NCBI GenBank assembly: GCA_013076295.1
Contig: RQOL01000859.1
Span: 58,170-122,169 of the forward strand
Direction: 5' to 3'
Length of the DNA stretch: 64,000 nt
Source of the DNA: Sanderia malayensis
Lineage: Eukaryota > Cnidaria > Scyphozoa > Semaeostomeae > Pelagiidae
The notes beneath the pieces are model-generated. The model was not told the origin of the DNA. It was given only the letters and a program-made list of their open reading frames with translations, and made no database searches. Shown here piece by piece: positions 7,819 through 46,632 of the stretch (positions are counted from its first letter, which is position 1; each line of letters starts with the position of its first letter). A program made the translations under genes and the position numbers.

Positions 7819-7917
7819 GACAGATCAAACGCCATGTTAAGGACAAACTTGGAGAGAAGTTGCCACAGAAAGAAAGGAAAAGAGAGGACAGTGACAAACT
7901 AAGGAGGAAAAAGAAAG

Positions 7918-13397: not shown

Positions 13398-13403
13398 CAC
13401 CAG
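13398..13403. repeat. Target-site duplication CACCAG (left)
   Basis: CACCAG directly precedes element G and recurs directly after it (44,810-44,815). The uninterrupted paralogue inside G reads TATTCACCAGCCTC with a single CACCAG at the same codons, so this is a 6-bp target duplication. Confidence 0.93.
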
Positions 13404-13472
13404 TGTGCCATGGCAAGTCTGTCGTCTCGTGACAAGTCTGTCCTCTGACAAGGAAGATATAATCAACCAATG
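13404..13472 (+). repeat. Left terminal inverted repeat of element G
   Basis: Matches the reverse complement of 44,741-44,809 with a few substitutions and one 1-base shift. Within it AAGTCTGTC-(C/G)-TCT occurs twice in direct orientation (13,415 and 13,434), the kind of subterminal repeat an integrase could bind. Confidence 0.92.
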
Positions 13473-13803
13473 GCTGGTGCATGTTGGTGTTACGTAGAAC
13501 TACGTGGAATTGGTATTGTTTAACTGACCAGGGGGACAACAAATGTTTCTTCATCTACCATTTTGAAGTAATATTTCGCGACCAAGATTGGGGAAAGCAA
13601 GGAAGCTTGCAAGTTTTAGTTAGGCCTAGTGAGTTGTATTAACGTATGTACCAATCCACCTTTTCTAAAAAAATTTCTTTGTTTGCGCACTTTGGAAATG
13701 GCGCGTTCTGATTGGCTGAGACGAAACCTAGGACAACTTTTCACAACCAACAGCATTCTCTAAGAGAAATCAGTCCCAAACATTGAATAAGCATGAACGG
13801 AAA

Positions 13804-15416
13804 ATGGTGAAATATTGCCAGTACGGAACTTGCATGAGTGATTCAAGAAAACCAAATGCACCTAAGATGACTAACCGATACGGAGAAAAGGTCAGATTCG
13901 TGCATTTTCCTGGGAAAGTAAGGAAACGGGAACAAGCAAGAAGATGGATCCATGCCTGCAGAAGGCCTAAGTCACAACTTTCATTCGAAAAACTGACACA
14001 TCAACATTACATTTGTTCACTTCATTTCGTCGGAGAAAATGGGCCCACAGATGAATTTCCAGATCCTGTGCCAGCAACTATTTCTCAAGAGCAGCGAGGA
14101 AAGCTTGAGAAGTCATTTGAGCGGCTACACGAAAAAAATGTGAAACGTTTCAAGACAAAGGCCAAGTCGAGCAGGCAATGTCTCGATAATGGATGTTGAT
14201 GAGAACGTAGGCCTAATAGATAAATCAGAGGAAACCTCCATTGGGAAGATAGACCAGAAAAATGAATGTGAAATTCGTCCTTCTCAGAACACTGATTTTA
14301 TTGAAGATGTCAATGAGAAGAAGATGTTTCGCATCATTTTATCAGCATTAAACTTGAAGACCCTATGCATTACAGTGTTGAAGAAACAAAAAAGGATAAA
14401 TATCATGAAGAAAGTGATATTGCGATGACCATGGACATGGATATCCGAAAGAAAGAAGATGCTGCAGTTGAAGCTCTCATTGCCATTGGGAAGATAGACC
14501 AGAAAAATGAATGTGAAATTTGTCCTTCTCAGAACACTGATTTTATTGAAGATGTCCATGAGAAGAAGATGTTTCGCAATCATTTTATCAGCATTATACT
14601 TGATGACCCTATGCATTACACAGGAATCAAGTCAAACGATTTGCTGAGGTATACTTTCTCTTTGGTTGAAAGGAAGGCAAGTAGAATGAATATTTGGCGT
14701 GGACAGAATGTGAGAAGCAAAAGACACAAGATAAAAGTGCTCTCATGCTGGAGGAATTTTTGCTGACCTTGGTACGAAACAGAAGGGGACTGATATCAAG
14801 ATGATAGCAGCATTATTTGGTATTGCCCATCTAATGCCAGTAATATATATATAACATGGAATCTCTTTTTGTCAAAAGAGCTGAAATTCTTGAGAAGATT
14901 TTCCTCAAAAGAAACAAATGAGAAAAATTTGCCAAAGTCTCTCAGAAAAAGAATGGTGATCCCAAGGATTTAGTTGCAGGTGTAAGATCCATTATAGATG
15001 CTGTGGAGTTTAGGTCAGAATCTCCGAGTGCCCCTGCAGCACAGAAACAGCTCTACAGCCCATACTACAACACTAACACGTACAAATTGCTCATAGGCTG
15101 TGCCCCTAATGGCTATATAAATTATACTTCAAAATTGTGGTCTGGAAATACTACAGATAAAGAACTTGTTGAAAAGTCAGGTTTTCTTGACTGCTTGAAG
15201 CCTGGTGACAGTGTTATGGCAGACAAAGGTTTTTGCATTCAAGACCTATTAGCTATAAAGCAATGCTATTTAGTCTGCCCACCAAAATTAAAAAACAAAA
15301 CTTTGAAACCTAGAGGATCAACCAAAGCACGGAAAGTTTCACATGTAAGAATTCACATAGAAAGAGCCATCAGACGATTAAAAACTTTTCATATTCTTAG
15401 TGGAGTACAAGAATGA
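13804..15416 (+). pseudogene. THAP-domain DDE transposase (ISL2EU/Harbinger-type)
   Basis: ATG at 13,804 (MVKYCQYGTC). THAP zinc finger at residues 1-95: C-x4-C, the W in RRWIHAC, C-x2-H in ICSLHF, and an AVPTIF-like box DPVPATI. After a linker the DDE_4 core is split: FSLLER-like segment (14,655-14,760), IIDAVEFRSESPSAPAAQ (about 14,990-15,045; first Asp), GYINYTSKLWSGNTTDKEL, PGDSVMADKGF (about 15,200; second Asp) and RIHIERAIRRLK (about 15,348; Glu). The catalytic triad is thus readable. Stops around 14,430 and 14,767, a 245-bp internal duplication and shortening between the second Asp and the Glu disable it. The THAP finger presumably binds the element ends. Confidence 0.85.
14238..14625 (+). 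repeat. About 245-bp tandem duplication inside the THAP transposase
   Basis: The segment encoding IGKIDQKNECEI and DFIEDV-EKKMF occurs at about 14,238-14,375 and again at about 14,483-14,625. The second reads on into the transposase; the first ends in a frameshift. Differences are few, so this is a recent local duplication that broke the gene. Confidence 0.9.
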
Positions 15417-15575
15417 CACAGAAAAGTTATGCAGATGATGTGATCAATGTTTGTGTTTCAATTGCAAACCTTGGAAACACTTTAGTTAAATAAAATATTA
15501 TTTTGTTAGATAATTATCTTAAGTCTTGAGAAATATTCAGTCAATTGTGTTGACTTTTCATGGCTATTTGATAAT

Positions 15576-18206
15576 CTATCCCATGCTTTTGTAAATAAAT
15601 TGCTTGAGCAAGTCTCTTTCCTGCCTCACTGTTGATTCACTGTACCAGTGTCTGTAGTCACCAGTACATAACTGGTTGATGTCTGAACGAAATAGCTCAA
15701 ATATTGCAGGACTCAGAAATGGTACATATTCAAAATTGTGTGCATTCCACAATCTGATCCATTTCTTTGTTGTGGGACAAGCAGGACCTGTTGTTTTACA
15801 TCTTTCCATTGCAACATGAATTTCCATTCAATAAAGTTGAAAATATTAGTAATTTGAGTGTCACGTGAAATTACACCTCCTGAACAATGACTAAGTGAAT
15901 CCATTACTATCGCACAGGTTTTGAAAATACAATGAGATACCAATGGTTGTGTTCACAGATTGGTACAATAGAATGCCATCAGCAGATAACTCCTTGATGA
16001 ATGAGGCTGCTTTCTCATATTTTTGTACTGTTGTCAGATTCCCCAAGTCCGAGTAAGTGACATGTAAAATATTGTGTCTACTATCTGGACATTGGAAGAT
16101 AGGTGTGCAAACTTTTCACAAATGATTCTTGTTGACATTGTTACTATATTGTCTGTAATCCAGCCTCCGGAATCTAGAGAATCAATGTCTTCTTGAAATA
16201 TTGGGACATCCCTAATGTTGCATAGCACAGGAGTGACTTGAGATGAGTTACACTCAATCAAATTTTCATGTTCCAAAATTTTGATTGTAGCATCTGGAGA
16301 TTTATGTTCTTGATATTCATACCTTATGTTAAGTTTTTTACTTTGCTCAGAGAAAATTTGTGGCAGCATCCAATTCAGATAAAATGACCTAACTTTTTGT
16401 TTCACATCAAGCCAAAATGTTCATCAAATGGAATTTCAACCAAAAAGATTGCACCATCATATCCCAGATCTCTATTTGTGGTGTAAACTACAAAATCACA
16501 CATTTGAATATTTGAAGCAGCCATGGCTCCTTGTATTTGATAGTAGTATTTATGCCTGACATCCATTGTGTAGGTACCATCAGCTTTCAAAATACCCCCA
16601 ATACTTTTGTCTAAAAAAGCATCTCTTGGATGTCTGTCTTTATTCTTAAAAGGACATTTGTATCTATTGTAGCTTCACCACAACATTTGCAAGATCTAAT
16701 GCCATCTGGACTTGCAGCAATAAAAGGATTTTCTTTGCATATTACCAACCCAGACAATCTTGCTTCAAAATTTTGATGAGTTCTGGACATGAAATTCATG
16801 TATTCATTTCTTGCTTCATGTTTCATTTTCTCTTCCGTACAAAATTTGGGAAGGCAAACTTTTATATTTTTCAAGTGAGTCACCCTTTAGAAGTCTTGTG
16901 GCAAGCTTTTCACCTGTTTCATTGTTGTTTTTTTCAATTTTATTCTGTCGTGCATAAACATCCTTTAAATGAGTTGAAGTTACAAAACCTCTTCTTTTGT
17001 ATTTTCCAATTTTCACCTTGACCCTTGTCTCTAACTCTACCTTTTTGATCTGATCGTCATCAAAGCCAACTGCCTCTCGAAATTATCTTGTTCCTTTCCT
17101 CCCTCTTTCAAGAATTTTTCAACATTTTCAATAAGTATTGGTTTTAGTGGCTTTGACTGTTTTTCCATATCATCTAAATCGATTTCAATTTCTGAATCAG
17201 TGTCATCTTCACTGTCAATAAACATTGCTGCGACAGACCCAAATTCTTTCAACTTTCTCTTCACAGTTTTCAGTTCATCATGTGATAATTTCACTTGATC
17301 TTCAGTGACACGAGGGTCAAAATCAATTTTATCCTTGAAGGGGCCTGTCGTTTTTTTGACCAGTGGGGATTGCAATTTAGTTTTTTTTTTCACGTTTTTT
17401 AAATGCATGCCTCTTCATTCCACTGCTACTTTTTACAACAAGGACATCATGAACAGGAGCTGCCCCAGTGCTTTTTAACTCCTTTTTTTTCCAGTAGCAT
17501 AACTTGTCAGTTGGTCCTGAAGAAGGATGGAGGCAATCATGCAACGAATACATGGCAGCAGCAATGTGTTTACATGCCCCATCCTGACCCCCAGGACACT
17601 GACAATATGCCGAAAAACACACCCAGCAGTTGGTTCCCATGAAAAAGCACTTCCATTTTCAACTTGCGTTCTCTCTCCGTCAACAATAAACCAAAGTTTA
17701 TAAAAAAGGTCACCTTGCCTGGTTTCCTTTGACATCGTCGGTTTCACCTTCCCAAGAAATATGAAGTGGCCACACGTTTCTTTTAAAATTAATTCTTCGA
17801 CATAACCGTCCATGAACAAGCCATATTCCTCAAAAGCTTTGTAGGACGCCACTTTCTGTCTGTTATACTTGCTTGACTTGAAGATCAAAAAGTTAAAAAT
17901 ATCCTCTATCCCGAACGGTGGCATGTTGTCTATTCTTGTGGAAAACTCGTTTATTGGGATAGAGAAAGGGTCGGGTAGTTTCGTACCTTTTATTGTAAGT
18001 CTTTCCGACAAATCTAAGCTGTCTTCGTGAAACTCCACATTGCTTTCAAGGCCTAATCGTATCGCTGCCTTGGCAAGCACAACAAGTTCGGCTTTTCTTT
18101 TATTGGAGACAGTGATTCCTTTCGACATAAGCACATTCCGTAAATCATAAACACTCATTCTTTCGATTTCTTCATCTCCTGTGCGATCAAGACCAAAATC
18201 ATTCAT
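15576..18206 (-). pseudogene. SWIM - YqaJ nuclease - Ulp1 (C48) protease fusion of the ISL2EU-like element
   Basis: ATG at 18,206. In order: an N-terminal region with a SAP-like segment (SVYDLRNVLMSKGITVSNKRKAELV, shown here only as position 18,160-18,085), a SWIM zinc finger YCQCPGG-x5-CKHIAAAM (about 17,610-17,550), an acidic linker (17,260-17,130), a YqaJ/lambda-exonuclease-like domain (KRRGFVTSTHL, NPFIAASPDGI, YYYQIQGAMAASN, CDFVVYT; 17,000-16,480), then a Ulp1/C48 protease: GGWITDNIV (about 16,165) and the catalytic PQQRNGSDCGMHT (about 15,755). Frameshifts near 17,630, 17,400, 17,020, 16,600 and 16,020 disable it. The gene is convergent with the transposase. YqaJ nucleases process DNA ends; the role in transposition is not established. 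Confidence 0.8.
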
Positions 18207-18358
18207 TTCGGACAGTATTTCTCAAGTCACTCAAAAGGCCAGTTCTCTTCATCAACAAGGACAGGAAAAGTTGTCCTAGGTTTCGTCTCAGCCAATCAGA
18301 ACGCGCCATTCTCAAAAGAGCGTAAACAAAGAATTTTTTTTAGAAAAGGTGGATTCTG

Positions 18359-19755: not shown

Positions 19756-20474
19756 CAGGGCATATAACCTAACAAACTGACAAACATATTAACATTTTTT
19801 CTTATAGCTGGAATGGAATCAATAGATTAGACCATGAACTTTCAGAAAAACGTTTTGTTCTCGCGTGTTTGATGACATCATATTAAGGCAAATCTTATTA
19901 ATTAAAGTGTGATTAATATTAACGGAATGAGATAACAAAACGAAAATTGCATTTTTGGAAATAGGTCAAATAGACCTATCGCATGAGATATCATTTTTTA
20001 AATTTGATAAGATCAGCATTTTGGTAGATGACGTCATCCAATAGCTGTTGAAAAACTGATCTTAATTTTTTCCTTACAACATTTTTCGGTCGACAAGATG
20101 AACTCGGCGAAAAATGTTGCCCGCTCATATTTATCAGCTTGAGCCAACGGACAAGATTTTGCGGTGTGTCTTATGGGGCATTGAAACTTACTATTCAGGC
20201 CCCTACAAAATGCGGGGCAAGGAGGGACACCAGGCCCCAAATAATTACACAGTTTTTCTCAGTAACTGTTCTCCAAACATATAAGTACCTCACAATTATT
20301 TTAACTTTTCTGCAGTCTTTATATTTGAAAATGAAGGAAAATATGATCCAAGCAGTCTAGCACTAATTCGCAATTTTGGGGCCAGAGGAAGTTTTCACTG
20401 ACAACACAATAGCAGATGCCATATAACTTTTTCAAAGAGTGCAATGGAGGTAACAGAGAGAGTTACGTTGAGAC

Positions 20475-20930: not shown

Positions 20931-21032
20931 AGATAGAGAAGACAGACTTTTCTTAAAGTTTCAATTTTTAGCGTGACCTATTGTATACTGGGTGTCAAGA
21001 CAGTCTTTGATCGGTACAGAACTTCAAAATTG

Positions 21033-23065: not shown

Positions 23066-24835
23066 ATGGCAGAGTTGGTCAGTGCTAATGCTCACAACGA
23101 GGAAGCTAAAAGTCAGAACAGTTGCAACCTCAGTGAAAGAGACAAGTGGATAATAAATTGGTGGGTTGATAAATATTTTTTTACAGTTTTCTGGTTGGAT
23201 ATAGTGATATTTAGACAAATAATTCTTCACATTGACATCAGTTTCCGCGAAGTAGTCGTTTCCAACAGATGAAGGCCATAGGCCCACTGTAGTACATACA
23301 ACCAAGACAAGTAATTTTAATAGCACGATTGAGAGACTGTTGCCGCTTCCTTTTTTATGGAAATGATGTTTTTCAATCTTCTATCAATTATCCGATACTT
23401 ACGTTGTTCTATCAGTGAGTGTTTTTTATTTTTTGTATTTTTGCCAGACAGCTAAATACAATAACATCTAGCTTCTCTTTGCTTGAAAGAATTTGTTGGG
23501 ACAACCGTTTGATTATATAAGCGACAATGTTGTGTGTAGTATTAGGCTGCAGTATATTGCTTAATATCACTATGACAATAAAATAAAAATCATTTTAGAC
23601 TGTCTCACATTTTTGCCACCACTAAACTTTTATCTGTGATTCCTCAGGTTATCAAAAAATTTGGTCAGCCAAGAAGGGAGCAAGGTTGAGGTGGCCGTGC
23701 TTGTACACAAAGTACAACAAGAATTGGGAGAACCTGTCTCCTCAAATGTAGTGGGTAAGTGTTTGCGTGCCGTTTTTGGTAAAAAAATCAAGAATTGCCA
23801 AAATAGCAAACGAGTAAGATGCTATTATGGCATAACATTTTTACTTGGAGAAGATGCTGTTGCACGTGTGAATATTGGATGTTTGGATGAAGAGTCGGGT
23901 GCTAGGTTTGATGATTCTGTTGAGGTGCAGAATAGTGGACAAAGTGGGGATTCAACAAAAACACAATCCCAGGCTTTGAATTATAGAAAAGCAATTAACC
24001 TGTATAGAAATAAACGACTGGAAAAAGAGAAACTGCAAAAGAATTTAGATAGGGAGCGAGAGTTGTCAAAGTACAGTAAGAGTCTTCAGTTACCATCATC
24101 AATGTTTTTGAAAGTAGAAGAACTGCTTGAGGTACCTAGTAGCAAGAAGAATTCAGGGACATTTGGGTGCTGCAGCCTATTTTCATACAGAGGCATGGAT
24201 GTTGCTGTCAAGGCATATAAAGAGTCAGAAGCTTTTACAGATGCTGCTTTGAAACAATCATTGTTAAAAGAGGCAAATGTGCTGCTAAGCTTACATTGTC
24301 ATAGAGGAATCCCCAAATTACTTGGTGTTGTCATGGAGATCAAGCCATATTGTCTTGTAACAAGTTTTCATGTGCTAGTTGTTTGATACCAGGTATGCCT
24401 AAGGGAAAAGAGGACTGGTTTAAAGTTTTGTGTAGTTTAGGTGATGCTCTTCTACATATTCATACAACTGGTTATGTCCATGGAGATATCAAAACTGACA
24501 ATGTTCTGGTTGAAGAGGGATTGGTTGCTGTTATCACTGACTTTGGTAAAAGTGTCCTTGCCACGAGATCAAAAATCAATAATATTCCTTTATCAGAAAG
24601 AGATGAGTATTGCAAGAAATACCCATGGGTTGCTCCTGAAGTTATTCACGCTAAGACAGCTCTAACTAGGGCAAGTGATATATTCGCATTCGGATACCTT
24701 ACTAAGAAAGTTGCAAAAACATGTGGCTTGAAGAGTAAGGGAATGGATGACATAATTTCTAACACACTCACTCCTGATCCTGACAAAAGAATTTGCCTTA
24801 AAGGAATACAGAGCATATTATCTGGGTATTTTTAA
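23066..24835 (+). pseudogene. RFX-like winged-helix + protein kinase fusion, frameshifted
   Basis: Exon 1 is 23,066-23,160 (MAELVSANAHNEEAK; donor TTG|GTGGGT), exon 2 starts at 23,648 after CCTCAG, in phase. The joined product reads WIINWLSKNL, PVSSNVVGKCLRAVF and then CYYGI, matching the spacing of RFX-type winged-helix DNA-binding domains (residues about 28-100). A charged coiled-coil-like stretch follows (about 24,000-24,070). The kinase domain has the glycine-loop/Lys block (GTFGCCSLFSYRGMDVAVKAY), HGDIKTDNVL (catalytic loop, about 24,480), ITDFGKS (about 24,535) and WVAPEVI (about 24,628). A frameshift and probable small deletion at 24,365-24,400 remove the hinge region. Substrate unknown. 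It lies within element G and may be cargo. Confidence 0.72.
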
Positions 24836-30457: not shown

Positions 30458-32526
30458 TTAATAAAGACGCAATGATGATAAAAGACAATGTTCAGCAGCA
30501 ACTCTTCTCCAGTTAATAAAGACCAATGATGATAAAGACAATGTTCAGCGGCAACTCTTCTCCAGTTAATAAAGACTCAATGATGATAAAAGAAAATGTT
30601 CAGCAGCAACTCTTCTCCAGTTAATAAAGACCCAATGATGATAAAACACAATGTTCAGCAGCAACTCTTCTCCAGTAAATAAAGACTCAATGATGATAAA
30701 AGACAATGTTCAGCAGCAACTCTTCTCCAGTTAATAAAGACTCAATGATGATAAAAGACAATGTTCAGCAGCAACTCTTCTCCAGTTAATAAAGACCCAA
30801 TGATGATAAAAGACAATGTTCAGCAGCAACTCTTCTCCAGTTAATAAAGACCCAATGATGATAAAAGACAATGTTCAGCGGCAACTCTTCTCCAGTTAAT
30901 AAAGACCCAATGATGATAAAAGACAATGTTCAGCAGTAACTCTTCTCCAGTTAATAAAGATGCAATGATGATAAAAGACAATGTTCAGCAGCAACTCTTC
31001 TCCAGTTAATAAAGACTCAATGATGATAAAAGACAATGTTCAGCAGCAACTCTTCTCCAGTTAATAAAGACCCAATGATGATAAAAGACAATGTTCAGCA
31101 GCAACTCTTCTCCAGTTAATAAAGACCAATGATGATAAAAGACAATGTTCAGCGGCAACTCTTCTCCAGTTAATAAAGACCCAATGATGATAAAAGACAA
31201 TGTTCAGCAGTAACTCTTCTCCAGTTAATAAAGATGCAATGATGATAAAAGACAATGTTCAGCAGCAACTCTTCTCCAGTTAATAAAGACCCAATGATGA
31301 TAAAAGACAATGTTCAGCAGCAACTCTTCTCCAGTTATTAAAGACGCAATGATGATAAAAGACAATGTTCAGCAGCAACTCCTCTCCAGTTAATAAAGAC
31401 GCAATGATGATAAAAGACAATGTTCAGCAGCAACTCTTCTCCAGTTAATAAAGACTCAATGATGATAAAAGACAATGTTCAGCAGCAACTCTTCTCCAGT
31501 TAATAAAGACCCAATGATGATAAAAGACAATGTTCAGCAGCAACTCTTCTCCAGTTAATAAAGACCCAATGATGATAAAAGACAATGTTCAGCAGCAACT
31601 CTTCTCCAGTTAATAAAGACGCAATGATGATAAAAGACAATGTTTAGCAGCAACTCTTCTCCAGTTAATAAAGACTCAATGATGATAAAAGAAAATGTTC
31701 AGCAGCAACTCTTCTCCAGTTAATAAAGACCCAATGATGATAAAAGACAATGTTCAGCAGTAACTCTTCTCCAGTTAATAAAGACGCAACGATGATAAAA
31801 GACAATGTTCAGCAGCAACTCTTCTCCAGTTAATAAAGACCAATGATGATAAAGACAAGTTCAGCAGCAACTCTTCTCCAGTTATTTAAAGACGCAATGA
31901 TGATAAAGACAATGTTCAGCAGCAACTCTTCTCCAGTTATAAAGACGCAATGATGATAAAAGCAATGTTCAGCAGCAACTCTTCTCCAGTTAATAAGACT
32001 CAATGATGATAAAAGACAATGTTAGCAGCAACTTTTCCAGTTAATAAAGACCAATGATGATAAAACACAATGTTCAGCAGCAACTCTTCTCCAGTTAATA
32101 AAGACTCAATGATGATAAAAGACAATGTTCAGCAGCAACTCTTCTCCAGTTAATAAAGACTCGATGATGATAAAAGACAATGTTCAGCAGCAACTCTTCT
32201 CCAGTTAATAAAGACCCAATGATGATAAAAGACAATGTTAGCAGCAACTCTTCTCCATTAATAAAGACCCATGATGATAAAGACAATGTTCAGCGGCAAC
32301 TTTCTCCAGTTAATAAAGACGCAATGATGATAAAAGACAATGTTCAGCAGCAACTCTTCTCCAGTTAAAAAGACCCAATGATGATAAAAGACAATGTTCA
32401 GCAGCAACTCTTCTCCAGTTATTAAGACGCAATGATGATGAAAGACAATGTTCAGCAGCAACTCTTCTCAGTTAATAAAAGACCCAATGATGATAAAAGA
32501 CAATGTTCAGCAGCAACTCTTCTCCA
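30458..32526. repeat. 55-bp minisatellite, array 2 (about 38 units)
   Basis: Same unit as array 1. The first units follow a variant order (GC; CC with CGGC; TC with GAAAATG; CC with AACAC; AGTAAAT-TC) that recurs at the start of arrays 3 and 4. The last 0.7 kb (31,840-32,520) is rich in single-base losses. Confidence 0.97.
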
Positions 32527-34639
32527 ATGTAAACGCACGATGACGTAATATATTTAAATAACATAAGACTTGATATAAATTTGGGACTTTTTATCTTTAT
32601 GCTGCTTGAACGCTTACATTGATCTATAGTAATCGTTTGTTGGAAGACATTCATTTGTTGCTTTTGTTTCATGATTTTTGCCAACACAAGCCCTTTCTTC
32701 TATTCTCTGATTCGCGCTAAGTGTCATTTTGTTAATCGTCTCATGCTCCAATCATCCAGTCTTCTTTTTTCATGGTTGGAAATCAATACCCAGTTTTCTC
32801 CTAAATATTAACGTTGCTTCGTGTTTTTTTGTTGCTGTTTAAAATATCGTCTGACCAAAGGTGTTAAAAGACGTAGCTTTTGTCGCCCAGAATCATATTT
32901 TCCTTCCAGTTAAGAAAATCATCGAGCTGGTCATTGGTTAAGGCGGCAAAATGATGGCCTGTAGGAATGTTTTTCGCGTGGCTGTCTTTCAGTTCGTAAA
33001 GGTATCTTCTTACCAGTGAATTTAGTTTGAGAAGAATTGCATCCTTCCCATACATCATCGTCATATTCATTTCCTGATAAATGTGCAAGGACAATGAAAA
33101 AGTGTGCACTAATACGGCACTAAGGTCTGCTCAGGTTTTCAGTAGGCAAATGACATTCAATGTTAACAAATGAAATATTACTTACATCTATCTCTTCTTG
33201 TTCTGGTCCTTGTGTCAGGATATATTTCAGTATGCCATCATCACTGATACTTTCTGAAAGTTAGAGTTTAAGCAAAAATTTTGTTGCACGCAGGATGTGT
33301 AAAGGTTGACCTTCATAAATGACGAATACAATATCATTTCTATTCCACAAGCAGATTGAAAACATTAAAGTATGTAACTCTAAAGAATAAAATTCTCTCC
33401 ATAGGTCTGCGCTTGCCAACTCCTTGCTATTCCCATTGACAATGTGTTGGGCCAGCAAATCTCTAACATCATCCTATCGAAGATGGAGAAATCTGGAGAT
33501 GTCTCCAGCAGGAACAACACATGTAGCATATGACGAATAGTGTGCACTGAGCATTGTCGTTTTTTAGAGGTAAAGTGTTGACTTTGCTACTAATTTGCCT
33601 GTTTTTCTAAAGTTGTTACTTGATAAGGCTTGTAGCAGAGTTTTCACTTCAAACTCATGCTCTTGCCCAAAGAGTCACATATGAAATAGTTGGATTTGTC
33701 CAGGTCAATACAAAGAGCCCCCAATGTTGCTGTGTATTCAATGGAAAGATAATTTTTTTCTCCCAAAGGCGGAAATTGTCTTGATTTTTTCCTCGATATT
33801 TTATAAAATTGGTTCTTAATTAACTGTGTGCCTATAAGAGGGTCAACAACAAAAACATCTTGATGCTGCATATTTATAGCCAAACCCACGCATGCATGAT
33901 GCTGTCATTGACATGAGAATCACCCTGAAGTGATCTTATATCATGTGCTGTAACATGGGGGAATGCGTTGGACACTTCCTGGCAATCATCTACTGAAGAA
34001 GAACTGCTCATGATATCAAAAGCAGTAAAGTCCTTGCCGAAAGTGATGTTTTCGTCAGGATTGTCGACTACGGTAATACGTTGGCAAACATATTTGTAAA
34101 TGCCGAAGCCCTTGCTATAGACAAGCTGCCAGAAATATACAAGGCAATCTGCTGGAGTGTATTCCAATGCACCATTATATTATTTAGGATGATGCATTTT
34201 GTTTGCAAATCAAACACGCTACATAATGAGATGCAGCATTATTAATCAAGATCCTATCACCAGTCTTTACATCTAACTTTGTCAAGAACTCTTGGTACAT
34301 GTTCTCTGCATCACTTTGAAGACAATCTGGATCAGCGGAAGCAAAGAAAGATTCCACTTCGTTGTTTAATTGCTTGTGGACATAGCCAACAGATTGAGCA
34401 CTGATCGAAAGAACATCTATATTATAATCGCCAGATAGTGCTCTGTGATTTTCCAGGTAATCATGAATGCTTTTAAAATTTGCTTCCTGCAACCAACAAG
34501 AGTCGGCAATCTGGTTCATGGTGCACTGTTCAAAGGATGTGTGAATGGTGTTATTTAACGCACACATGCCACACAGAGATGTACATCCCTGCATCTGTAT
34601 ACAAAGTTGCAATCCTGCATGATTGCAACTTTGTATACA
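32527..34639 (-). repeat. Protease cassette B
   Basis: Second truncated duplicate of the G gene's 3' half. Josephin-like part 34,612-34,184, bridge and C48 start 34,167-33,874, C48 core 33,889-33,261, last exon 33,076-32,700. Like cassette A it has the sense codon at the position of G's stop at 40,747, and like C and D it has lost the exon-2 donor. Many single-base deletions (for example in runs near 33,380, 33,530 and 33,760) break all frames. Confidence 0.93.
34596..34639. repeat. Snapback palindrome at cassette B/array 3 junction
   Basis: 19-bp arms (34,596-34,614 and 34,621-34,639; TGTATACAAAGTTGCAATC and its complement) around CTGCAT. The array begins at the next base. In the full gene (41,210-41,240) only the left arm and a 5-bp CAATC-CTGCAT-GATTG stem exist. 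Confidence 0.95.
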
Positions 34640-35298
34640 TTAATAAAGACGCAATGATGATAAAAGACAATGTTCAGCAGCAACTCTTCTCCAGTTAATA
34701 AAGACCCAATGATGATAAAAGACAATGTTCAGCGGCAACTCTTCTCCAGTTAATAAAGACTCAATGATGATAAAAGAAAATGTTCAGCAGCAACTCTTCT
34801 CCAGTTAATAAAGACCCAATGATGATAAAACACAATGTTCAGCAGCAACTCTTCTCCAGTAAATAAAGACTCAATGATGATAAAAGACAATGTTCAGCAG
34901 CAACTCTTCTCCAGTTAATAAAGACTCAATGATGATAAAAGACAATGTTCAGCGGCAACTCTTCTCCAGTTAATAAAGACGCAATGATGATAAAAGACAA
35001 TGTTCAGCAGCAACTCTTCTCCAGTTAAAAAAGACCCAATGATGATAAAAGACAATGTTCAGCAGCAACTCTTCTCCAGTTATTAAAGACGCAATGATGA
35101 TAAAAGACAATGTTCAGCAGCAACTCTTCTCCAGTTAATAAAGACCCAATGATGATAAAAGACAATGTTCAGCAGCAACTCTTCTCCAGTTAATAAAGAC
35201 GCAATGATGATAAAAGACAATGTTCGGCAGCAACTCTTCTCCAGTTAATAAAGACTCAATGGTGATAAAAAACAATGTTCAGCAGCAACTCTTCTCCA
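34640..35298. repeat. 55-bp minisatellite, array 3 (about 12 units)
   Basis: Short array with the same unit. Its first five units share the variant order of arrays 2 and 4, and its last units (AAAAAGAC-CC, TATTAAAGAC-GC, TC with GGTGATAAAAA) match the end of array 4. It looks like array 4 with the middle removed. Confidence 0.97.
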
Positions 35299-37432
35299 AT
35301 AGTAAACGCACGATGACGTAATAATATTTAAATAACATAAGACTTGATATAAATTTGGGACCTTTTTATCTTTATGCTGCTTGAACGCTTACATTGATCT
35401 ATAGTAATCGTTTGTTGGAAGACATTCATTTGTTGCTTTGTTTCATGATTTTTGCCAACACAAGCCCTTTCTTCTATTCCTCTGATTCGCGGCTAAGTGT
35501 CATTTTGTTAATCGTCTCATCCTCCCAATCATCCAGTCTTCTTTTTTCATGGTTGGAAATCAATACCCAGTTTTCTCCTAAATACTTAACGTTGTTTCGT
35601 GTTTTTTGTTGCTGTTTAAAATATCGTCTGACCAAAGGTGTTAAAAAGACGTAGCTTTTGTCGCCCAGAATCATATTTTTCCTTCCAGTTAAGAAAATCA
35701 TCGAGCTGGTCATTGGTTAAGGCGGCAAAATGATGGCCTGTAGGAATGTTTTTCGCGTGGCTGTCTTTCAGTTCGTAAAGGTATCTTCTTACCAGTGAAT
35801 TTAGTTTGAGAAGAATTGCATCCTTCCCATACATCATCGTCATATTCATTTCCTGATAAATGTGCAAGGACAATGAAAAAGTGTGCACTAATACGGCACT
35901 AAGGTCTGCTCAGGTTTTGAGTAGGCAAATGACATTCAATGTTAACAAATGAAATATTACTTACATCTATCTCTTCTTGTTCTGGTCCTTGTGTCAGGAT
36001 ATATTTCAGTATGCCATCATCACTGATACTTTCTGAAAGTTAGAGTGTTAAGCAAAAATTTTTGTTGCACGCAGGATGTGTAAAGGTTGACCTTCATAAA
36101 TGACGAATACAATATCATTTCTATTCCACAAGCAAGATTGAAAACATTAAAGTATGTAACTCTAAAGAAATAAAATTCTCTCCATAGGTCTGCGCTTGCC
36201 AACTCCTTGCTATTCCCATTGACAATGTGTTGGGCCAGCAAATCTCTAACATCATCCATATCGAAGATGGAGAAATCTGGAGATGTCTCCAGCAGGAACA
36301 ACACCATGTAGCATATGACGAATAGTGTGCACTGAGCATTGTCGTTTTTTAGAGGTAAAAGTGTTGACTTTGCTACTAATTTGCCTGTTTTTCTAAAGTT
36401 GTTACTTGATAAGGCTTGTAGCAGAGTTTTCACTTCAAACTCATGCTCTTGCCCCAAAGAGTCACATATGAAATAGTTGGATTTGTCCAGGTCAATACAA
36501 AGAGCCCACCAATGTTGCTGTGTATTCAATGGAAAGATAATTTTTTTCTTCCCACAAGGTGGAAATTGTCTTGATTTTTTCCTCAATATTTTATAAAATT
36601 GGTTCTTAATTAACTGTGTACCTATAAGAGGGTCAACAACAAAAACATCTTGATGCTGCATATTTATAGCCAAACCCACTGCATGCATGATGCTGTCATT
36701 GACATGAGAATCACCCTGAAGTGATCTTATATCATGTGCTGTAACATGGGGGAATGCGTTGGACACTTCCTGGCAATCATCTACTGAAGAAGAACTGCTC
36801 ATGATATCAAAAGCAGTAAAGTCCTTGTCGAAAGTGATGTTTTCGTCAGGATTGTCGACTACGGTAATACGTTGGCAAACATATTTGTAAATGCCGAAGC
36901 CTTTGCTATAGACAAGCTGCCAGAATTATACAAGGCAATCTGCTGGAGTGTATTCCAATGCACCATTTATATTATCTAGGATGATGCATTTTGTTTGCAA
37001 AATCAAACACGCTACATAATGAGATGCAGCATTATTAATCAAGATCCTATCACCAGTCTTTACATCTAACTTTGTCAAGAAGTCTTGGTACATGTTCTCT
37101 GCATCACTTTGAAGACAATCTGGATCAGCGGAAGCAAAGAAAGATTCCACTTCGTTGTTTAATTGCTTGTGGACATAGCCAACAGATTGAGCACTGATCG
37201 AAAGAACATCTATATTATAATCGCCAGATAGTGCTCTGTGATTTTCCAGGTAATCATGAATGCTTTTAAAATTTGCTTCCTGCAACCAACAAGAGTCGGC
37301 AATCTGGTTCATGGTGCACTGTTCAAAGGATGTGTGAATGGTGTTATTTAACGCACACATGCCACACAGAGATGTACATCCCTGCATCTGTATACAAAGT
37401 TGCAATCCTGCATGATTGCAACTTTGTATACA
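35299..37432 (-). repeat. Protease cassette C
   Basis: Third truncated duplicate, nearly identical to the 3' half of the full gene (39,121-41,236) including the same TAA (36,928-36,926) after DCLV and the same loss of the exon-2 donor. It is therefore the most recent copy, made after those mutations. Ends in the 19-bp palindrome (37,389-37,432). Confidence 0.95.
36020..37405 (-). pseudogene. Josephin-like and C48-like protease segments, cassette C
   Basis: Two in-phase open frames: 37,405-36,926 (Josephin-like; SLCGMCALNN and ASHYVACLI) and 36,802-36,020 (C48-like, 260 codons from an ATG). Separated only by the TAA and 41 sense codons. Differences from G's own copy are a handful, e.g. ILRKKSRQFPPCG for ISRKKSRQFPPFG. 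The C48 frame could in principle be translated alone, but no promoter is visible. Confidence 0.8.
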
Positions 37433-39120
37433 TTAATAAAGACGCAATGATGATAAAAGACAATGTTCAGCAGCAACTCTTCTCCAGTTAATAAAGACCC
37501 AATGATGATAAAAGACAATGTTCAGCGGCAACTCTTCTCCAGTTAATAAAGACTCAATGATATAAAAGAAAATGTTCAGCAGCAACTCTTCTCCAGTTAA
37601 TAAAGACCCAATGATGATAAAACACAATGTTCAGCAGCAACTCTTCTCCAGTAAATAAAGACTCAATGATGATAAAAGACAATGTTCAGCAGCAACTCTT
37701 CTCCAGTTAATAAAGACTCAATGATGATAAAAGACAATGTTCAGCAGCAACTCTTCTCCAGTTAATAAAGACCCAATGATGATAAAAGACAATGTTCAGC
37801 AGCAACTCTTCTCCAGTTAATAAAGACCCAATGATGATAAAAACAATGTTCAGCGGCAACTCTTCTCCAGTTAATAAAGACCCAATGATGATAAAAGACA
37901 ATGTTCAGCAGTAACTCTTCTCCACTTAATAAAGTCTCAATGATGATAAAAGACAATGTTCAGCAGCAACTCTTCCCAGTTAATAAAGACTCAATGATGA
38001 TAAAAGACAATGTTCAGCAGCAACTCTTCTCCAGTTAAAAAGACCAATGATGATAAAAGACAATGTTCAGCAGCAACTCTTCTCCAGTTAATAAAGACCA
38101 ATGATGATAAAAGACAATGTTCAGCAGCAACTCTTCTCCAGTTAATAAAGACGCAATGATGATAAAAGACAATGTTTAGCAGCAACTCTTCTCCAGTTAA
38201 TAAAGACTCAATGATGATAAAAGAAAATGTTCAGCAGCAACTCTTTCCAGTTAATAAAGACCAATGATGATAAAAGACAAGTTCAGCAGAACTCTTCTCC
38301 AGTTAATAAAGACCAATGATGATAAAAGACAATGTTCAGCAGCAACTCTTCTCCAGTTAATAAAGACCCAATGATGATAAAAGACAATGTTCAGCAGCAA
38401 CTCTTCTCCAGTTATAAAGACCCAATGATGATAAAAGACAATGTTCAGCAGCAACTCTTCTCCAGTTAATAAAGACGCAATGATGATAAAAGACAATGTT
38501 CAGCAGCAACTCTTCTCCAGTTAATAAAGACCAATGATGATAAAAGACAATGTTCAGCAGCAACTCTTCTCCAGTTAATAAAGACCCAATGATGATAAAA
38601 GACAATGTTCAGCAGCAACTCTTCTCCAGTTAATAAGACGCAATGATGATAAAAGACAATGTTCAGCAGCAACTCTTCTCCAGTTAATAAAGACCCAATA
38701 ATGATAAAAGACAATGTTCAGCAGCAACTCTTCTCCAGTTAATAAAGACCCAATGATGATAAAAGACAATGTTCAGCGGCAACTCTTCTCCAGTTAATAA
38801 AGACGCAATGATGATAAAAGACAATGTTCAGCAGCAACTCTTCTCCAGTTAAAAAAGACCAATGATGATAAAAGACAATGTTCAGCAGCAACTCTTCTCC
38901 AGTTATTAAAGACGCAATGATGATAAAAGACAATGTTCAGCAGCAACTCTTCTCCAGTTAATAAAGACCCAATGATGATAAAAGACAATGTTCAGCAGCA
39001 ACTCTTCTCCAGTTAATAAAGACGCAATGATGATAAAAGACAATGTTCAGCAGCAACTCTTCTCCAGTTAATAAAGACTCAATGGTGATAAAAACAATGT
39101 TCAGCAGCAACTCTTCTCCA
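37433..39120. repeat. 55-bp minisatellite, array 4 (about 31 units)
   Basis: Same unit; directly follows the last intact cassette junction and abuts the 3' end of the full-length gene at 39,121 (CCAATAGTAAACGCACGATG, shared by all four cassettes). A patch at 38,030-38,300 has several single-base losses. Confidence 0.97.
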
Positions 39121-39998
39121 ATAGTAAACGCACGATGACGTAATAATATTTAAATAACATAAGACTTGATATAAATTTGGGACCTTTTTATCTTTATGCT
39201 GCTTGAACGCTTACATTGATCTATAGTAATCGTTTGTTGGAAGACATTCATTTGTTGCTTTGTTTCATGATTTTTGCCAACACAAGCCCTTTCTTCTATT
39301 CCTCTGATTCGCGGCTAAGTGTCATTTTGTTAATCGTCTCATCCTCCCAATCATCCAGTCTTCTTTTTTCATGGTTGGAAATCAATACCCAGTTTTCTCC
39401 TAAATACTTAACGTTGTTTCGTGTTTTTTGTTGCTGTTTAAAATATCGTCTGACCAAAGGTGTTAAAAAGACGTAGCTTTTGTCGCCCAGAATCATATTT
39501 TCCTTCCAGTTAAGAAAATCATCGAGCTGGTCATTGGTTAAGGCGGCAAAATGATGGCCTGTAGGAATGTTTTTCGCGTGGCTGTCTTTCAGTTCGTAAA
39601 GGTATCTTCTTACCAGTGAATTTAGTTTGAGAAGAATTGCATCCTTCCCATACATCATCGTCATATTCATTTCCTGATAAATGTGCAAGGACAATGAAAA
39701 AGTGTGCACTAATACGGCACTAAGGTCTGCTCAGGTTTTGAGTAGGCAAATGACATTCAATGTTAACAAATGAAATATTACTTACATCTATCTCTTCTTG
39801 TTCTGGTCCTTGTGTCAGGATATATTTCAGTATGCCATCATCACTGATACTTTCTGAAAGTTAGAGTGTTAAGCAAAAATTTTTGTTGCACGCAGGATGT
39901 GTAAAGGTTGACCTTCATAAATGACGAATACAATATCATTTCTATTCCACAAGCAAGATTGAAAACATTAAAGTATGTAACTCTAAAGAAATAAAATT

Positions 39999-40623
39999 CT
40001 CTCCATAGGTCTGCGCTTGCCAACTCCTTGCTATTCCCATTGACAATGTGTTGGGCCAGCAAATCTCTAACATCATCCATATCGAAGATGGAGAAATCTG
40101 GAGATGTCTCCAGCAGGAACAACACCATGTAGCATATGACGAATAGTGTGCACTGAGCATTGTCGTTTTTTAGAGGTAAAAGTGTTGACTTTGCTACTAA
40201 TTTGCCTGTTTTTCTAAAGTTGTTACTTGATAAGGCTTGTAGCAGAGTTTTCACTTCAAACTCATGCTCTTGCCCCAAAGAGTCACATATGAAATAGTTG
40301 GATTTGTCCAGGTCAATACAAAGAGCCCACCAATGTTGCTGTGTATTCAATGGAAAGATAATTTTTTTCTTCCCAAAAGGCGGAAATTGTCTTGATTTTT
40401 TCCTCGATATTTTATAAAATTGGTTCTTAATTAACTGTGTGCCTATAAGAGGGTCAACAACAAAAACATCTTGATGCTGCATATTTATAGCCAAACCCAC
40501 TGCATGCATGATGCTGTCATTGACATGAGAATCACCCTGAAGTGATCTTATATCATGTGCTGTAACATGGGGGAATGCGTTGGACACTTCCTGGCAATCA
40601 TCTACTGAAGAAGAACTGCTCAT
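39999..40623 (-). pseudogene. Ulp1/C48-like cysteine protease domain of the polyprotein
   Basis: Residues match the Ulp1 order: HVNDSIMHAVGLAIN (substrate-gate segment), QQHWWALCIDLD with His codon 40,335-40,333, YFICDSLG with Asp codon 40,284-40,282, and NDNAQCTLFVICYMV with Cys codon 40,152-40,150. The usual DCG at the nucleophile is QCT, so the residue before Cys differs from the family. C48 proteases cleave SUMO-like tags or viral/transposon precursors. The open frame of 260 codons starts at an ATG at 40,623 but upstream in-frame codons continue the same chain. Confidence 0.78.
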
Positions 40624-40749
40624 GATATCAAAAGCAGTAAAGTCCTTGTCGAAAGTGATGTTTTCGTCAGGATTGTCGACTACGGTAATACGTTGGCAAA
40701 CATATTTGTAAATGCCGAAGCCCTTGCTATAGACAAGCTGCCAGAATTA

Positions 40750-41400
40750 TACAAGGCAATCTGCTGGAGTGTATTCCAATGCACCATTTATATTATCTAG
40801 GATGATGCATTTTGTTTGCAAAATCAAACACGCTACATAATGAGATGCAGCATTATTAATCAAGATCCTATCACCAGTTTTTACATCTAACTTTGTCAAG
40901 AAGTCTTGGTACATGTTCTCTGCATCACTTTGAAGACAATCTGGATCAGCGGAAGCAAAGAAAGATTCCACTTCGTTGTTTAATTGCTTGTGGACATAGC
41001 CAACAGATTGAGCACTGATCGAAAGAACATCTATATTATAATCGCCAGATAGTGCTCTGTGATTTTCCAGGTAATCATGAATGCTTTTAAAATTTGCTTC
41101 CTGCAACCAACAAGAGTCGGCAATCTGGTTCATGGTGCACTGTTCAAAGGATGTGTGAATGGTGTTATTTAACGCACACATGCCACACAGAGATGTACAT
41201 CCCTGCATCTGTATACAAAGTTGCAATCCTGCATGATTGAATTTCTTCCAGAAAGGCTTATTTTTTGGAGAAGATTCTTCGAAAACAACTTGCAAGAAGT
41301 GTTGCAGATTCTTCACTGTGTTAGGTGACCAGTTGTGTGCTTCTTTGATGCTAGTTAACAATCGTGACCTGAATGTTTGCAGCATATTTTTGATATCAGG
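40750..41400 (-). pseudogene. Josephin-like cysteine protease domain of the polyprotein
   Basis: Deubiquitinase-like fold inferred from the block SLCGMCALNN, which aligns with the ataxin-3 Josephin signature (Cys, then L-N-N seven residues on). Putative catalytic Cys codon 41,187-41,185; His codon 40,842-40,840 in AASHYVACL; Asp/Asn in IILDNIN about 15 residues later. Length about 150 residues fits the family. In host copy H this part is missing. Role is likely cleavage of the polyprotein or removal of ubiquitin from a partner; neither is shown by sequence. An OTU or other papain-like fold is the alternative. Confidence 0.68.
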
Positions 41401-44400
41401 GCTTATGTTGTCATTTTGTTGCATACAATCACAGTTAGTCATGCACGAGGCAAACAGCTCATTCAAATCAGTCATTTCATCATGTATTGACGAGTCAATA
41501 ATTTGGAAACTTGATTCGTTTTGACTGTTGATGCTAGTTTGCTTTTTTTTGGGCGGTGCTGAAGTCGTTTCCACAGATTTGGCAACTCTTTTGCGTTTTT
41601 TCCCACCAGACGATGTTTGCTTCTTAGCTATTTGTGCCTTAACGCCACATCACTCAGCAAAGTTTAGAGCCATTTGCTGACAACATGCATGGCTGCAGTA
41701 GCAATTCATGTCACTGAAGCAGTCTATACATTTGTGCTGATTATCAGCATTGAGAAATTTTAGCAAAGCATCGCTAAGCCACACCCTTCGTCTTCTCTCC
41801 CATGCAACTGAACCATACAAAAAACTGGAGAAGCCTGTTGATTTTAATTCATCGATGCATTTTGTATATTTATCATGAAACTGTCGTTGCAAATCAGAGT
41901 CAATATCTTGATACAAATGCGACAAGATACCACAATCAAGACCCTCGAAATAGCGTTGGAAAAGCTTGTTGATGTTGCCTGGTACATTCTTGCCTCTCGT
42001 CACACCTGCCCGATACATGGTACGCCGTACCTGCAGACCAAAGTCGCATATTGCATCAAGTATGTGCTTCTTATTTGAGAACGTCGAGGAAACATTATTG
42101 GAGATGTCTAAGCTGTTTTTGCCAGCCTTAAAAAGAACCATCTCTCCCTCAAAAACATCCTTTTTAAAAACTTCTTGACCCTCGGATAGCTCCAACTTGT
42201 ACATACCCTCGGGTAAGATTTCAGTCACTTGAGCAACAACATTTGTGGGAGCAAAGGGGTCTCGAGTCTTTATGGAAGACATTTTCGCAGTTGGATTTTT
42301 TATGAGTACACAATCTCCAACATTAAATTTGTCCCCGGGACAATTTTTTATGTTACGCTCAATATTTCTATGAATAGTGCATTCAGTCGACTCGAGAACA
42401 TGTAGCTGCAAATTGCTCTTTGTTAAAGAATGCTGAAATAAACAAGAGGTGAACTTGATCTGTTCAAAATCTTCTTCAGCATCAACCTCTGTGTCTGTCC
42501 CTGAATTGTTGCTGTGTGATTCAAGTGAGTCAGAAACCAACTGAGAAGACAGAGTGTTAGAAAAACAAGACTTAGAAAGAGAAGAACCAACACAGGACTG
42601 CAGCAGATCTTCAACAGAACATGTACTGGTCGCCTTGCAGTCAGACCTCTTATCATCACCATCATCATCATCATCACCATCATCATCAGAATCACATGTA
42701 TCCTCATCCTCATCTTCAGAATCAGGTGTTGACAATTCCTCATTTTCACCAAAGAAAACAGTGTCGTCAGGGACAATTGTAAAATTTAAGGAGCTTGTTT
42801 CTCTGTTCCTGTACACTCTAAAAGGAATGTCATCAATTGTGGAATGATAAGATTTGTTGATCTTATCTGCTATTCCAGGAAGTAGCACTGGCCATGTTTT
42901 AGCTTGTTCAGCTGGAGAGGAGTTCTGAAGAAGTCGTCGAAGGTACATTTTCCCTGTCTGATTAAGGCGTTCCACTTGACCTTGGTGTTGTGGCGTGTAT
43001 GGTTTCCCTTGAATCATGCTGAAGCCATAATCAGCACTTAGTTGCTTTATAAGTTTGTTGACAAACTCCTTACCATTGTCAGGCTGCAAAATTTTTGGTG
43101 GCCCTTCAATGTCAAATAAGAACTTGACAACATTGTAAACATGTGAAGCCTTTTTTCTTTTCAAAGGGAAGAGCCAACAGAATTTACTAAAACAGCATTT
43201 AATGGAAAGAATATAGCGAAAGTGACACTGATTATTTTTCATGAAGCCTCTTTTTTTGGAAGGAGCCATGTCAATTAGGTCATACTGGAGTCGTTCATGA
43301 GGATGGAAAGCACAAATAGGTTTTGGTGGTGGAGCTTGTGTCATTTTGAGAGGAACATTGATCCGACATGTTTCACATGCATGAAGATATTTTCGAATCT
43401 TTTGAAAGACACCCTTATAATAAAACTTAGCATTAAAAGATTTGCTGAGAGAGTTAACTCCCCAAGGAAGACAGGACTGGAGACCGCTGGCTATTTTAGT
43501 GCAATAGAGGCTGGTGAATACATCAGTTAAAATTTCTTTGTATACAACAATTTTGTATTCACTGAACAACTTTGTCTTTTTGTTATAGGTGTTATGAATT
43601 ATTACTGGCAAACCATCATATTCATTGACAACAAAGTTACCAAGAATGTCTGTCTGTAGCTGGTAAAGTGACTTCGAGTTGTTTTTGTTGTAAAAGAGAT
43701 TACGGATATTTTCTTTGATGAAATTTAAGAGAGCTGCTTTTTGGGATTTGGTAAAAGCATATTCTGCAATGCTGCAACTATATTCCATATTGTATTGGAG
43801 AACTAGAAATTTTAACAAGATCTTATACAAAGAAAAGGATATGGGACCTTGAAAAGAATGGCCAGTGGCATCAAATGGCAATTTCAAAGCTGCATCAATT
43901 GCTTTGGCATTTTTTGGCAGATCAGGGACAGGAATATGACTTTCTTCCTGAGCAGACGGCTTGGGAACAGATTGCTCCACTTCACTAACAACAGACCCAC
44001 CTTCCTCACCTAAAGCAATAACATGTTTTTAGCATTGTGGTTGCCCTGGCCTCATAATCTCTAATGAAAACAATCATCAGGTGATAACTTAATTAGAATT
44101 GTAAATTATTAGGTAGCTAAAATATGAACAGATTTTTATGAATGGTAAATTTCTTGGGAATCTAATCACTGGCCAAACAACACTTCAGCAAAATTTCAAA
44201 GATAAGTTGTAAAGGCATTAGATTAGGCAATACATAATTTAAAAACATATGTTGAAAAACAATTGCTTTTAGCTTCCTATCAAATCAATTTTGTATGGCT
44301 AACAAGTTAAGCTCTCCCTGGAAAAGGTATGGTGAGATATTGCAGTGCTAAATGGTTTAATTCAATTTTTTTAGTCACCAAATGTGTCACAATGCAAAAT

Positions 44401-44545
44401 TTACTAAAATGTGACTTGCTCGGCCTAAGTCACCGCAAGTTGCAAACAAAAAATTATTACAAACAGAATTAATACAGTTTCAACAGAATCACTTACGTTC
44501 GTCACTGTCACTGAGAGCTTCAAATGCTTTCATGAGTTCGTCCAT

Positions 44546-44740
44546 GACTTTGGTAACTTGAAAACGTTATGAAATTTGATTCAAATGCAAATTGCAACTG
44601 TTTCAATGAGAGTTTCAATGAAAATGTTTCACAAACTCAATAAATTTTCGCGATCGTTCCACTTTATACTTCCATCAGGGAAATCCTACCCCCGGGTTTG
44701 CTGACATATAATTCTTATATCACAGGACTCAATCAAATTT
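44546..44740 (-). promoter_or_regulatory. 5' leader/promoter region of the polyprotein gene
   Basis: Between the terminal repeat and the ATG; contains TATAAAGTGGAAC on the minus strand (about 44,671-44,659), a TATA-like element about 115 bp upstream of the ATG. Transcription start is not determined. Confidence 0.4.
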
Positions 44741-44809
44741 CATTGGTTGATTATATCTTCTACGTCAGAGGACAGACTTGTCACGAGAGGACAGACTTGC
44801 CACGCTACA
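44741..44809 (-). repeat. Right terminal inverted repeat of element G
   Basis: Reverse complement of the left repeat. The gene's ATG (44,545) lies about 265 bp inside, so this end carries the promoter side. Contains two direct copies of GAGAGGACAGACTTG-like sequence. Confidence 0.92.
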
Positions 44810-44815
44810 CACCAG
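44810..44815. repeat. Target-site duplication CACCAG (right)
   Basis: Second copy of CACCAG. Host coding resumes with CCTCCATTGCACTAAAA, matching the uninterrupted gene at 43,521-43,500. Confidence 0.93.
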
Positions 44816-45359: not shown

Positions 45360-45363
45360 TTAA

Positions 45364-46628: not shown

Positions 46629-46632
46629 TTAA

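Follow-up and report, generated by a model that had tools for sequence, protein, structure and literature searches.

The 64,000-nucleotide stretch of Sanderia malayensis DNA analyzed here (contig RQOL01000859.1, 58,170 to 122,169, forward strand; referred to as the window, in whose coordinates the positions are given) contains a 31,406-bp element, designated G, at 13,404–44,809. G is very probably a copy of a family of large transposons of the cut-and-paste type, whose likely unit is roughly 14–19 kb long and carries a kinase gene beside the gene of an integrase-protease transposase. The evidence consists of the ends of G and its target site duplication, its nesting in a related gene, the recurrence of the same ends elsewhere in the genome, the gene content shared by the copies, open frames in other copies, and near-identical left ends at different sites.

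The boundaries drawn in the initial annotation, which had described an integrase-type transposon with inverted ends beginning TGT and with CACCAG on each side, are confirmed in the sequence. The 6-bp target site duplication CACCAG is read at 13398–13403 and again at 44810–44815, directly outside the TGT...ACA termini of G at 13,404 and 44,809. The left terminal inverted repeat (TIR; 13404–13472, plus strand, TGTGCC...) holds two direct repeats of about 19 bp, and the right one (44741–44809, minus strand, ...GCTACA) holds two of 19 bp; both were followed in the sequence and by genome search. The two ends are identical at 59 of the first 66 ungapped positions. Removal of G together with one CACCAG restores the reading of the target, as had been proposed: the joined flanks align with G's own integrase gene over 1,473 columns at 94% identity with 15 gap positions, and no gap falls at the join point. 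By alignment, the 5′ part of the interrupted integrase gene lies at 12493–13403 and the 3′ part at 44816–47732, both on the plus strand. This outer gene contains stop codons and an insert of its own, 1.27 kb long, at about 45,364–46,628. The idea that G is nested in a copy of its own family stands in so far as the target is the integrase gene of a relative, but the outer copy is an integrase relic and not a whole element. Its match begins 376 bp short of the expected right terminus and ends at 47,732, and no inverted end adjoining it was found in a search with the family ends.

Both ends of G come from one insertion, because five family copies show the same pairing of left end and right end, each with its own 6-bp duplication. 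The alternative of two separate insertions was checked and falls with this pairing. Alternatively, the arrangement could have been created by a mis-join among repeats during assembly. Members of the family do lie at assembly gaps and on small contigs whose flanks are duplicated (C25/C750/C568, C291/C879, and two C445 ends). G, however, is free of N in the assembly, and the duplications match at both ends in five of five closed copies, which a mis-join would not produce; we regard an artefact of this kind as extremely improbable.

The S. malayensis assembly (184,004,477 bases in 918 contigs) was searched with the 69-bp ends, as the initial annotation had proposed, and further insertions were found, the closed copies (both ends on one contig) ranging from 12.0 to 31.4 kb. 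An EFTUD2 fragment from this genome, named after its matches, equals a EukProt protein at 100% identity; among the best 120 of 2,734 matches, the high-ranking entries with a species name are hydrozoan (Hydractinia 80%, Hydra and Clytia 78%), except for a mammal entry at 74% with a better score. A search of the assembly for COX1 gave no match. The 69-bp left-end query produced at least 27 genome matches (its own site, the right end of G, and 25 elsewhere), and a 200-bp right-end query produced 28, one of them a fragment. These matches can be read as 13 left and 14 right ends. Ends with identical 20-bp flanks were merged (two C25 left ends; C25/C750/C568; C291/C879; two C445 ends), which leaves 11 sites for each kind of end; with six left-right pairs among them, the total comes to 16 sites. 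The strictest lower bound is 11 sites, if the unpaired left and right ends belong together; among the 25 possible pairs of unpaired ends, none agrees at 6/6 flank bases and one agrees at 5/6 (C155 with the copy at the start of contig C45).

Five copies are closed: G (31,406 bp), C571 (19,135 bp), C25 (22,743 bp), C655 (25,295 bp), and C303 (12,012 bp). All five are flanked by perfect 6-bp duplications, all different (CACCAG, GATATT, CACGTT, CACGAT, and GTGATG). The right end of C303 is without one direct repeat, and for this copy the duplication was read next to the end as shortened. A sixth pair, formed by a left end on C445 and a right end on C579 (CAGCTA), was recognised through the duplication and hence is not independent. 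Self-nesting is seen a second time near the start of C45 (L025, C45:5640), where a right end sits directly in the left terminal repeat of another member. As a separate observation, two left ends on C445 (C445:119683 and C445:123624; L004/L005) are separated by 3.94 kb and have the same flank: an insertion edge duplicated in tandem. C25, C750, and C568 (L012/L027/L030) share one insertion flank and may be haplotype copies or segmental duplicates.

C571, C25, C655, and C303 align to G at the left 252 bp, the kinase region, and the transposase end, C303 with a large internal deletion. The parts matched to G amount to 18.1 kb of C571, 14.5 kb of C25, 13.6 kb of C655, and 9.6 kb of C303, and from these the plan shared by the family is estimated at roughly 14–19 kb. 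All five closed copies carry the kinase gene, intact or broken, and all five hold the integrase-protease gene, whole or in part. The kinase and the integrase-protease gene are, in that light, standard parts of the family. To the question in the initial annotation whether other copies contain the kinase and the protease cassettes, the answer is yes for the kinase and for this one gene; among the closed copies, the extra cassettes occur only in G. Movement as one large unit, kinase gene included, is likely.

The initial annotation had left a choice between an element that moved as a giant and one that grew after insertion. Growth alone would mean that a 5–7 kb Ginger1-like element landed and the rest accreted at this site. 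The insert described below and the extra cassettes, found in G alone of the five closed copies, are what growth would leave behind. Yet four independent insertions hold the kinase half between the same ends with duplications of their own, and near-identical kinases or left halves are found at different sites. A short intact copy consisting of TIR, transposase, and TIR was not present among the matches listed (27 end matches). Growth as the whole explanation is very unlikely. Both alternatives apply in part: the shared plan is present in the relatives, and G is both giant and grown, because none of the four other closed copies has the THAP/DDE transposon or the extra cassettes.

The transposase gene reads best in the copy on C478, where one open frame of 1363 aa encodes the integrase, a Josephin-like segment from about residue 941, and then Ulp1. 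In G the same frame is the main exon at 40000–44028 (minus strand), found by Pfam and alignment, with two in-frame stops over 1344 aligned residues. The frame is shifted, stopped, interrupted, or deleted in C571, C25, C655, C303, both C45 copies, and C750. Within the main exon of G, Pfam and alignment place the integrase part with its rve domain (PF00665, E 4.8e-11) at 41650–44028, also on the minus strand, as are the following parts. The Ulp1-type protease (Peptidase_C48, matched in the window by Pfam) occupies an open frame at 39841–40746, and a first exon, from an ATG to a GTAAGT donor, is predicted by eye at 44497–44545. Judged by eye against what we take to be the residue pattern, the DDE residues of the integrase are in place.

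The Josephin-like domain at 40750–41229 (minus strand) is predicted through alignment to a homologue, P0003, which passes the Pfam Josephin cut-off (26.5 against 26.0); the window segment by itself does not, and neither this segment alone nor homologue P0001 has a Josephin match in Pfam. The segment is 37% identical to P0003 and 46% to P0001, and the best PDB match of its profile, the best of 3, is Josephin-2 at E 0.072. Pfam scans gave no match for OTU. On sequence comparison, then, the transposase is a putative integrase–Josephin-like–Ulp1 protein with two predicted cysteine proteases. A search of 5.8 billion proteins returned 22 homologues. Reading the domain accessions in their presumed meanings, 18 list an integrase core without reverse-transcriptase-type domains; of these 18, four have a listed Ulp1 domain and one belongs to a named species, Clytia hemisphaerica (36% identity). 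The remaining four comprise one without a listed domain and three with reverse-transcriptase-type domains. An H2C2 zinc finger gives a sub-threshold Pfam match (E 0.0056). By eye, the nine aligned proteins show H-C-C-C and not H2C2: the presumed second His is Cys in 9/9, and G has Tyr at the His position. No clear match to the GPY/F and YPYY motifs was seen by eye in the alignment.

The kinase gene of G, on the plus strand, consists of exon 1 (23066–23161, MAELVSAN...) and a main exon (23640–24835), and both match the EukProt gene model P0023. Pfam finds a protein kinase in the product of the main exon, preceded by an RFX-like winged helix predicted from alignment and a structure model. VAVK, HGD, and DFG, which we take to be the catalytic motifs, are present by eye. 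Foldseek with a longer model of the kinase returned kinases in all of the best 50 of 1,939 matches. The gene in G is broken by one 46-bp deletion near 24,372; in C571 and in C655 the kinase frame is open throughout its 413 codons. Every locus with at least 88% kinase identity (10/10) lies within 20 kb of a family end, C25 and C750 sharing a flank and perhaps representing one site. The weaker of the 38 kinase matches are two fragments at 84% and one at 76% on C303 and one at 78% on C445; the rest do not exceed 40%. For the 45 pairs of kinase copies, dN/dS is 0.2–0.7, with one pair at 0.93 (C25–C750) and three pairs, among C445, C478, and C578, giving no value as they have no synonymous changes. 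Synonymous changes exceed the neutral share in five of five pairs chosen from the 45 (p 0.002–0.014); these five share sequences and are not independent. Six-frame Pfam scans for a second gene in the left half showed the kinase only, and two small conserved open frames there have no Pfam match.

It is possible, though not the more likely reading, that the kinase is a passenger, a host gene captured once by an ordinary Ginger-like element, without a role in transposition and kept because the big copy chanced to be amplified. Distant kinase relatives at about 32% identity are present in the genome, the homologues in Lineus and Branchiostoma bear ordinary gene names, and end-bearing stretches without a kinase exist (C291 and the second left end of C25). 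The synonymous excess among the copies argues against a passenger, as does the finding that away from family ends there are only short fragments at 76–84% and kinases at no more than 40%. Moreover, homologues with the same N-terminal extension (P0024, P0025, P0028, P0029) are found in other genomes, so that this type of kinase gene is old.

The N-terminal part, about 70 residues conserved in those four homologues, is likely an RFX-type winged helix with predicted DNA binding. The scores behind this assignment are weak. The best PDB match of the N-terminal profile, the best of 7, is RFX1 (1dp7) with an E of 0.42; the predicted structure, a winged helix, has a modest mean pLDDT of 69; Foldseek of this model places RFX5 at rank 2 among the best 50 of 632, with the highest probability, 0.97, but E 0.14; and Pfam finds no RFX match in the N-terminus. 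The first 14 bp of the left end can be compared with the RFX X-box, using what we take to be its consensus. They agree at 11/14 positions in G, at 10 in C571, C655, and C303, and at 9 in C25, and the right end agrees at 8/14; 34 of the 63,987 14-mers of the window reach 10 positions. The likeness of the left terminus to an X-box is a lead, not a result. In a bolder reading, the giant integrase transposons seen here would form a lineage of animal elements not yet described, with the kinase as a partner in transposition and not as cargo: its RFX-like domain would bind the element's own left terminus, and kinase, deubiquitinase, and deSUMOylase, gathered at the transposition site, would control host repair; we consider this doubtful. 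A viral link of the family was also looked for and not seen, as profiles of the kinase and the transposase found no relatives in viral contigs.

Some copies appear to be recent, because three left ends at different sites are near-identical: those of C571, C616, and C155 are 99.7–99.8% identical over 3,833 bp, with different flanks, each stopping at a 100-N gap, beyond which C571 continues as the element. Apart from single-base gaps, the kinases of C445 and C478 do not differ in any of the 371 codons compared. Recent activity of the element is likely. G itself looks older: its two ends differ at 7 of 66 positions; the corresponding counts are 2 in C571, 2 in C25, and 5 in C655.

The mode of movement can be proposed as follows. 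The integrase would recognise the terminal repeats, with their two direct repeats of about 19 bp each, and excise the element; cuts staggered by 6 bp at the target, once repaired, would leave the 6-bp duplication. At the site, the Josephin-like and Ulp1 domains may free proteins of repair or of chromatin from ubiquitin and SUMO, a role parallel to the one suggested for the proteases of Ginger1. The kinase might bind DNA through its RFX-type winged helix and, as a regulator that the element itself encodes, influence transposition or the response of the host. G landed at CACCAG in an integrase relic that was already dead; a nested THAP/DDE transposon and three tandem protease/minisatellite cassettes lie within it as well, and its transposase and kinase genes have decayed.

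Several observations weigh against the reading of G as a member of a kinase-bearing family that moves as a unit. No excision was observed, and no allele without G was found in the assembly: the G-free site gives 15 matches, each of them at a place already assigned to the family, and the closest one other than the site itself is 97% identical. The closed copies number only five, and one of them, C571, holds a 100-N gap. The right end on C291 is followed by 37 kb more of contig with no kinase match, and the second left end of C25, which has the same flank as the first, continues gap-free for 19.9 kb, of which about 2.2 kb match G, without a kinase. The 7.6 kb (C616) and 6.3 kb (C155) fetched past the gap have no match to G or C571, and these copies may be short. 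In none of the copies seen are the two genes both complete and open. The kinase is open in C571 and C655, where the transposase is shifted or stopped; C478 has an open transposase, but its kinase has a gap and a stop, no left end is seen (the left part lies beyond a gap), and its right end is without the outermost 3 bp. The kinase dN/dS, finally, mixes selection on source copies with later decay. In C616, C155, and C45 a gap is reached before a kinase could be seen, and in C416, C579, C568, C879, and the copy at the start of C45 the contig ends before that point; the right-end copy on C303 at 5,529,630 is accompanied by no more than a fragment of the kinase, 16 kb off.

Within G, at 13656–18352 (253–4949 relative to G; no strand assigned), lies a separate transposon of about 4.7 kb with THAP and DDE_Tnp_4 proteins and its own TIRs of about 91 bp (94.5%), recognised by Pfam and by alignment to the other copies; it is missing from 4/4 other closed copies. 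Repeat finding shows four arrays of a 55-bp minisatellite, at 26088–28340 (41 copies), 30458–32526 (38 copies), 34640–35298 (12 copies), and 37433–39120 (31 copies). Interleaved with them are three partial Josephin-like/Ulp1 cassettes found by alignment on the minus strand: a broken tandem duplicate at 29154–30443, a truncated one at 34176–34624, and one with a single stop at 36179–37417, whose tandem unit is 99.2% identical to the unit that holds the 3′ end of the main transposase gene. This interleaving is seen in G alone among the copies compared. The minisatellite itself is more widespread: by Tandem Repeats Finder (TRF) on seven copies, it is present in C571, C25, C655, and C750 and not in C303, C45, or the copy at the start of C45. 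C25 and C655 have other inserts of their own, that of C655 including a retroelement frame seen by eye.

Outside G, the window holds a tandem duplication at 5281–7954 with a 1.36-kb unit at 96.5% identity, and open frames resembling the helicase of Helitrons are seen by eye on both sides of G, at 53273–57298 (minus) and 4358–5340 (plus). Satellite arrays with 88-, 115-, and 203-bp units and the core GGCGCACTTCGTGCGC occupy 49669–51028 and 62389–63024. Adjoining the outer relic, 11300–12490 comprises parts of a sequence found close together on C303 and C280; here the parts are split by a short repeat with many copies in the genome.

Among known systems, Polintons/Mavericks fall in a similar size class. 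The possibility that G is a degraded Polinton has in its favour the 6-bp duplication, which is typical of Polintons as far as the accessible part of PMC10045372 goes, the size class of 15–20 kb, the integrase, and the cysteine protease. Nevertheless, when the left 7.7 kb of C571 were scanned with Pfam in six frames, stop codons being written as X, the matches were to families of the kinase type only and not to DNA polymerase B, packaging ATPase, or capsid; the protease is of the Ulp1/Josephin type and fused to the integrase; and the TIRs are short, 69 bp, and begin TGT. Descent from a Polinton is highly unlikely. In passages of PMC6431247, Ginger is named three times; it is compared with Polintons, and the integrase and protease of Polintons are said to have possibly come from it.

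The closest likeness is to Ginger1, as presented in the parts available of the 2010 description (Bao, Kapitonov and Jurka 2010, PMC2836005): elements of 2.6–7 kb with a 4-bp CCGG or CCGT duplication and OTU or Ulp1, not both, whose proteases were suggested to help transposition. Common to Ginger1 and the present family are a Gypsy-like integrase core (rve) with a C-terminal Ulp1 cysteine protease, TGT..ACA ends, a TIR length of 69 bp (within 40–270 bp), occurrence in cnidarians (Hydra for Ginger1, with a relative of the present transposase in Clytia, at 36% identity), and an intron in the transposase gene, predicted here by eye only. The differences lie in size (12.0, 19.1, 22.7, 25.3, and 31.4 kb against 2.6–7 kb, so that the 31,406 bp of G are as unusual as the initial annotation had held), in the variable 6-bp duplication without CCGG in 5/5 closed copies, in the combination of predicted Josephin-like and Ulp1 domains, and in the added kinase gene. 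GPY/F is not clearly seen by eye, and the second zinc-finger His position is Cys in 9/9. Of the terminus TGTNR given in that description, the right end (TGTAG) fits, and the left end (TGTGC, or TGTGT in C25) is off at the fifth base.

According to the accessible text of PMC10045372, the duplication is 4 bp in Ginger1, 4–5 bp in Ginger2, 6 bp in Polintons, and 6 bp in IS3EU/GingerRoot. The present family differs from Ginger2/Tdd by its 6 bp against 4 or 5 bp, and none of the five duplications is RTATAY. It resembles GingerRoot/IS3EU in the 6-bp duplications and the integrase-like transposase, and GingerRoot ends are occasionally TG..CA. In the same portion of that source the GingerRoot/IS3EU ends are mostly TA..TA, there is no HHCC upstream of the core, in contrast to the H-C-C-C form here, and no kinase or protease fusion is described (PMC10045372). 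The assignment to the Ginger type made in the initial annotation can thus be kept as far as transposase and TGT..ACA ends are concerned; a duplication of 6 bp fits neither Ginger1 nor Ginger2 as published. Since size and duplication fail, the family is, by comparison with the published description, better regarded as a Ginger-like variant than as Ginger1. In the open-access literature, for the most part records without full text, no paper was found on an element of Ginger type that has a kinase or Josephin, or that is large or carries cargo.

Starships and other giant cargo transposons, from what partial sources describe, are likewise large and carry genes beyond the transposition enzyme; Starships are fungal and use a tyrosine recombinase, whereas the present family is animal, with a DDE integrase and one recurring accessory gene. 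If our reading is true, the range of Ginger-like cut-and-paste elements is stretched, to sizes larger than any in the 2010 description, another length of the duplication, a transposase with two proteases, and a kinase gene that recurs. Likely recent activity would make the roles of the kinase and of ubiquitin/SUMO removal in transposition testable. The family also bears on the way in which modules of integrase and protease are passed around among large mobile elements: it combines the two with a duplication as long as that of Polintons and a size in their class, and no viral gene has been found in it so far.

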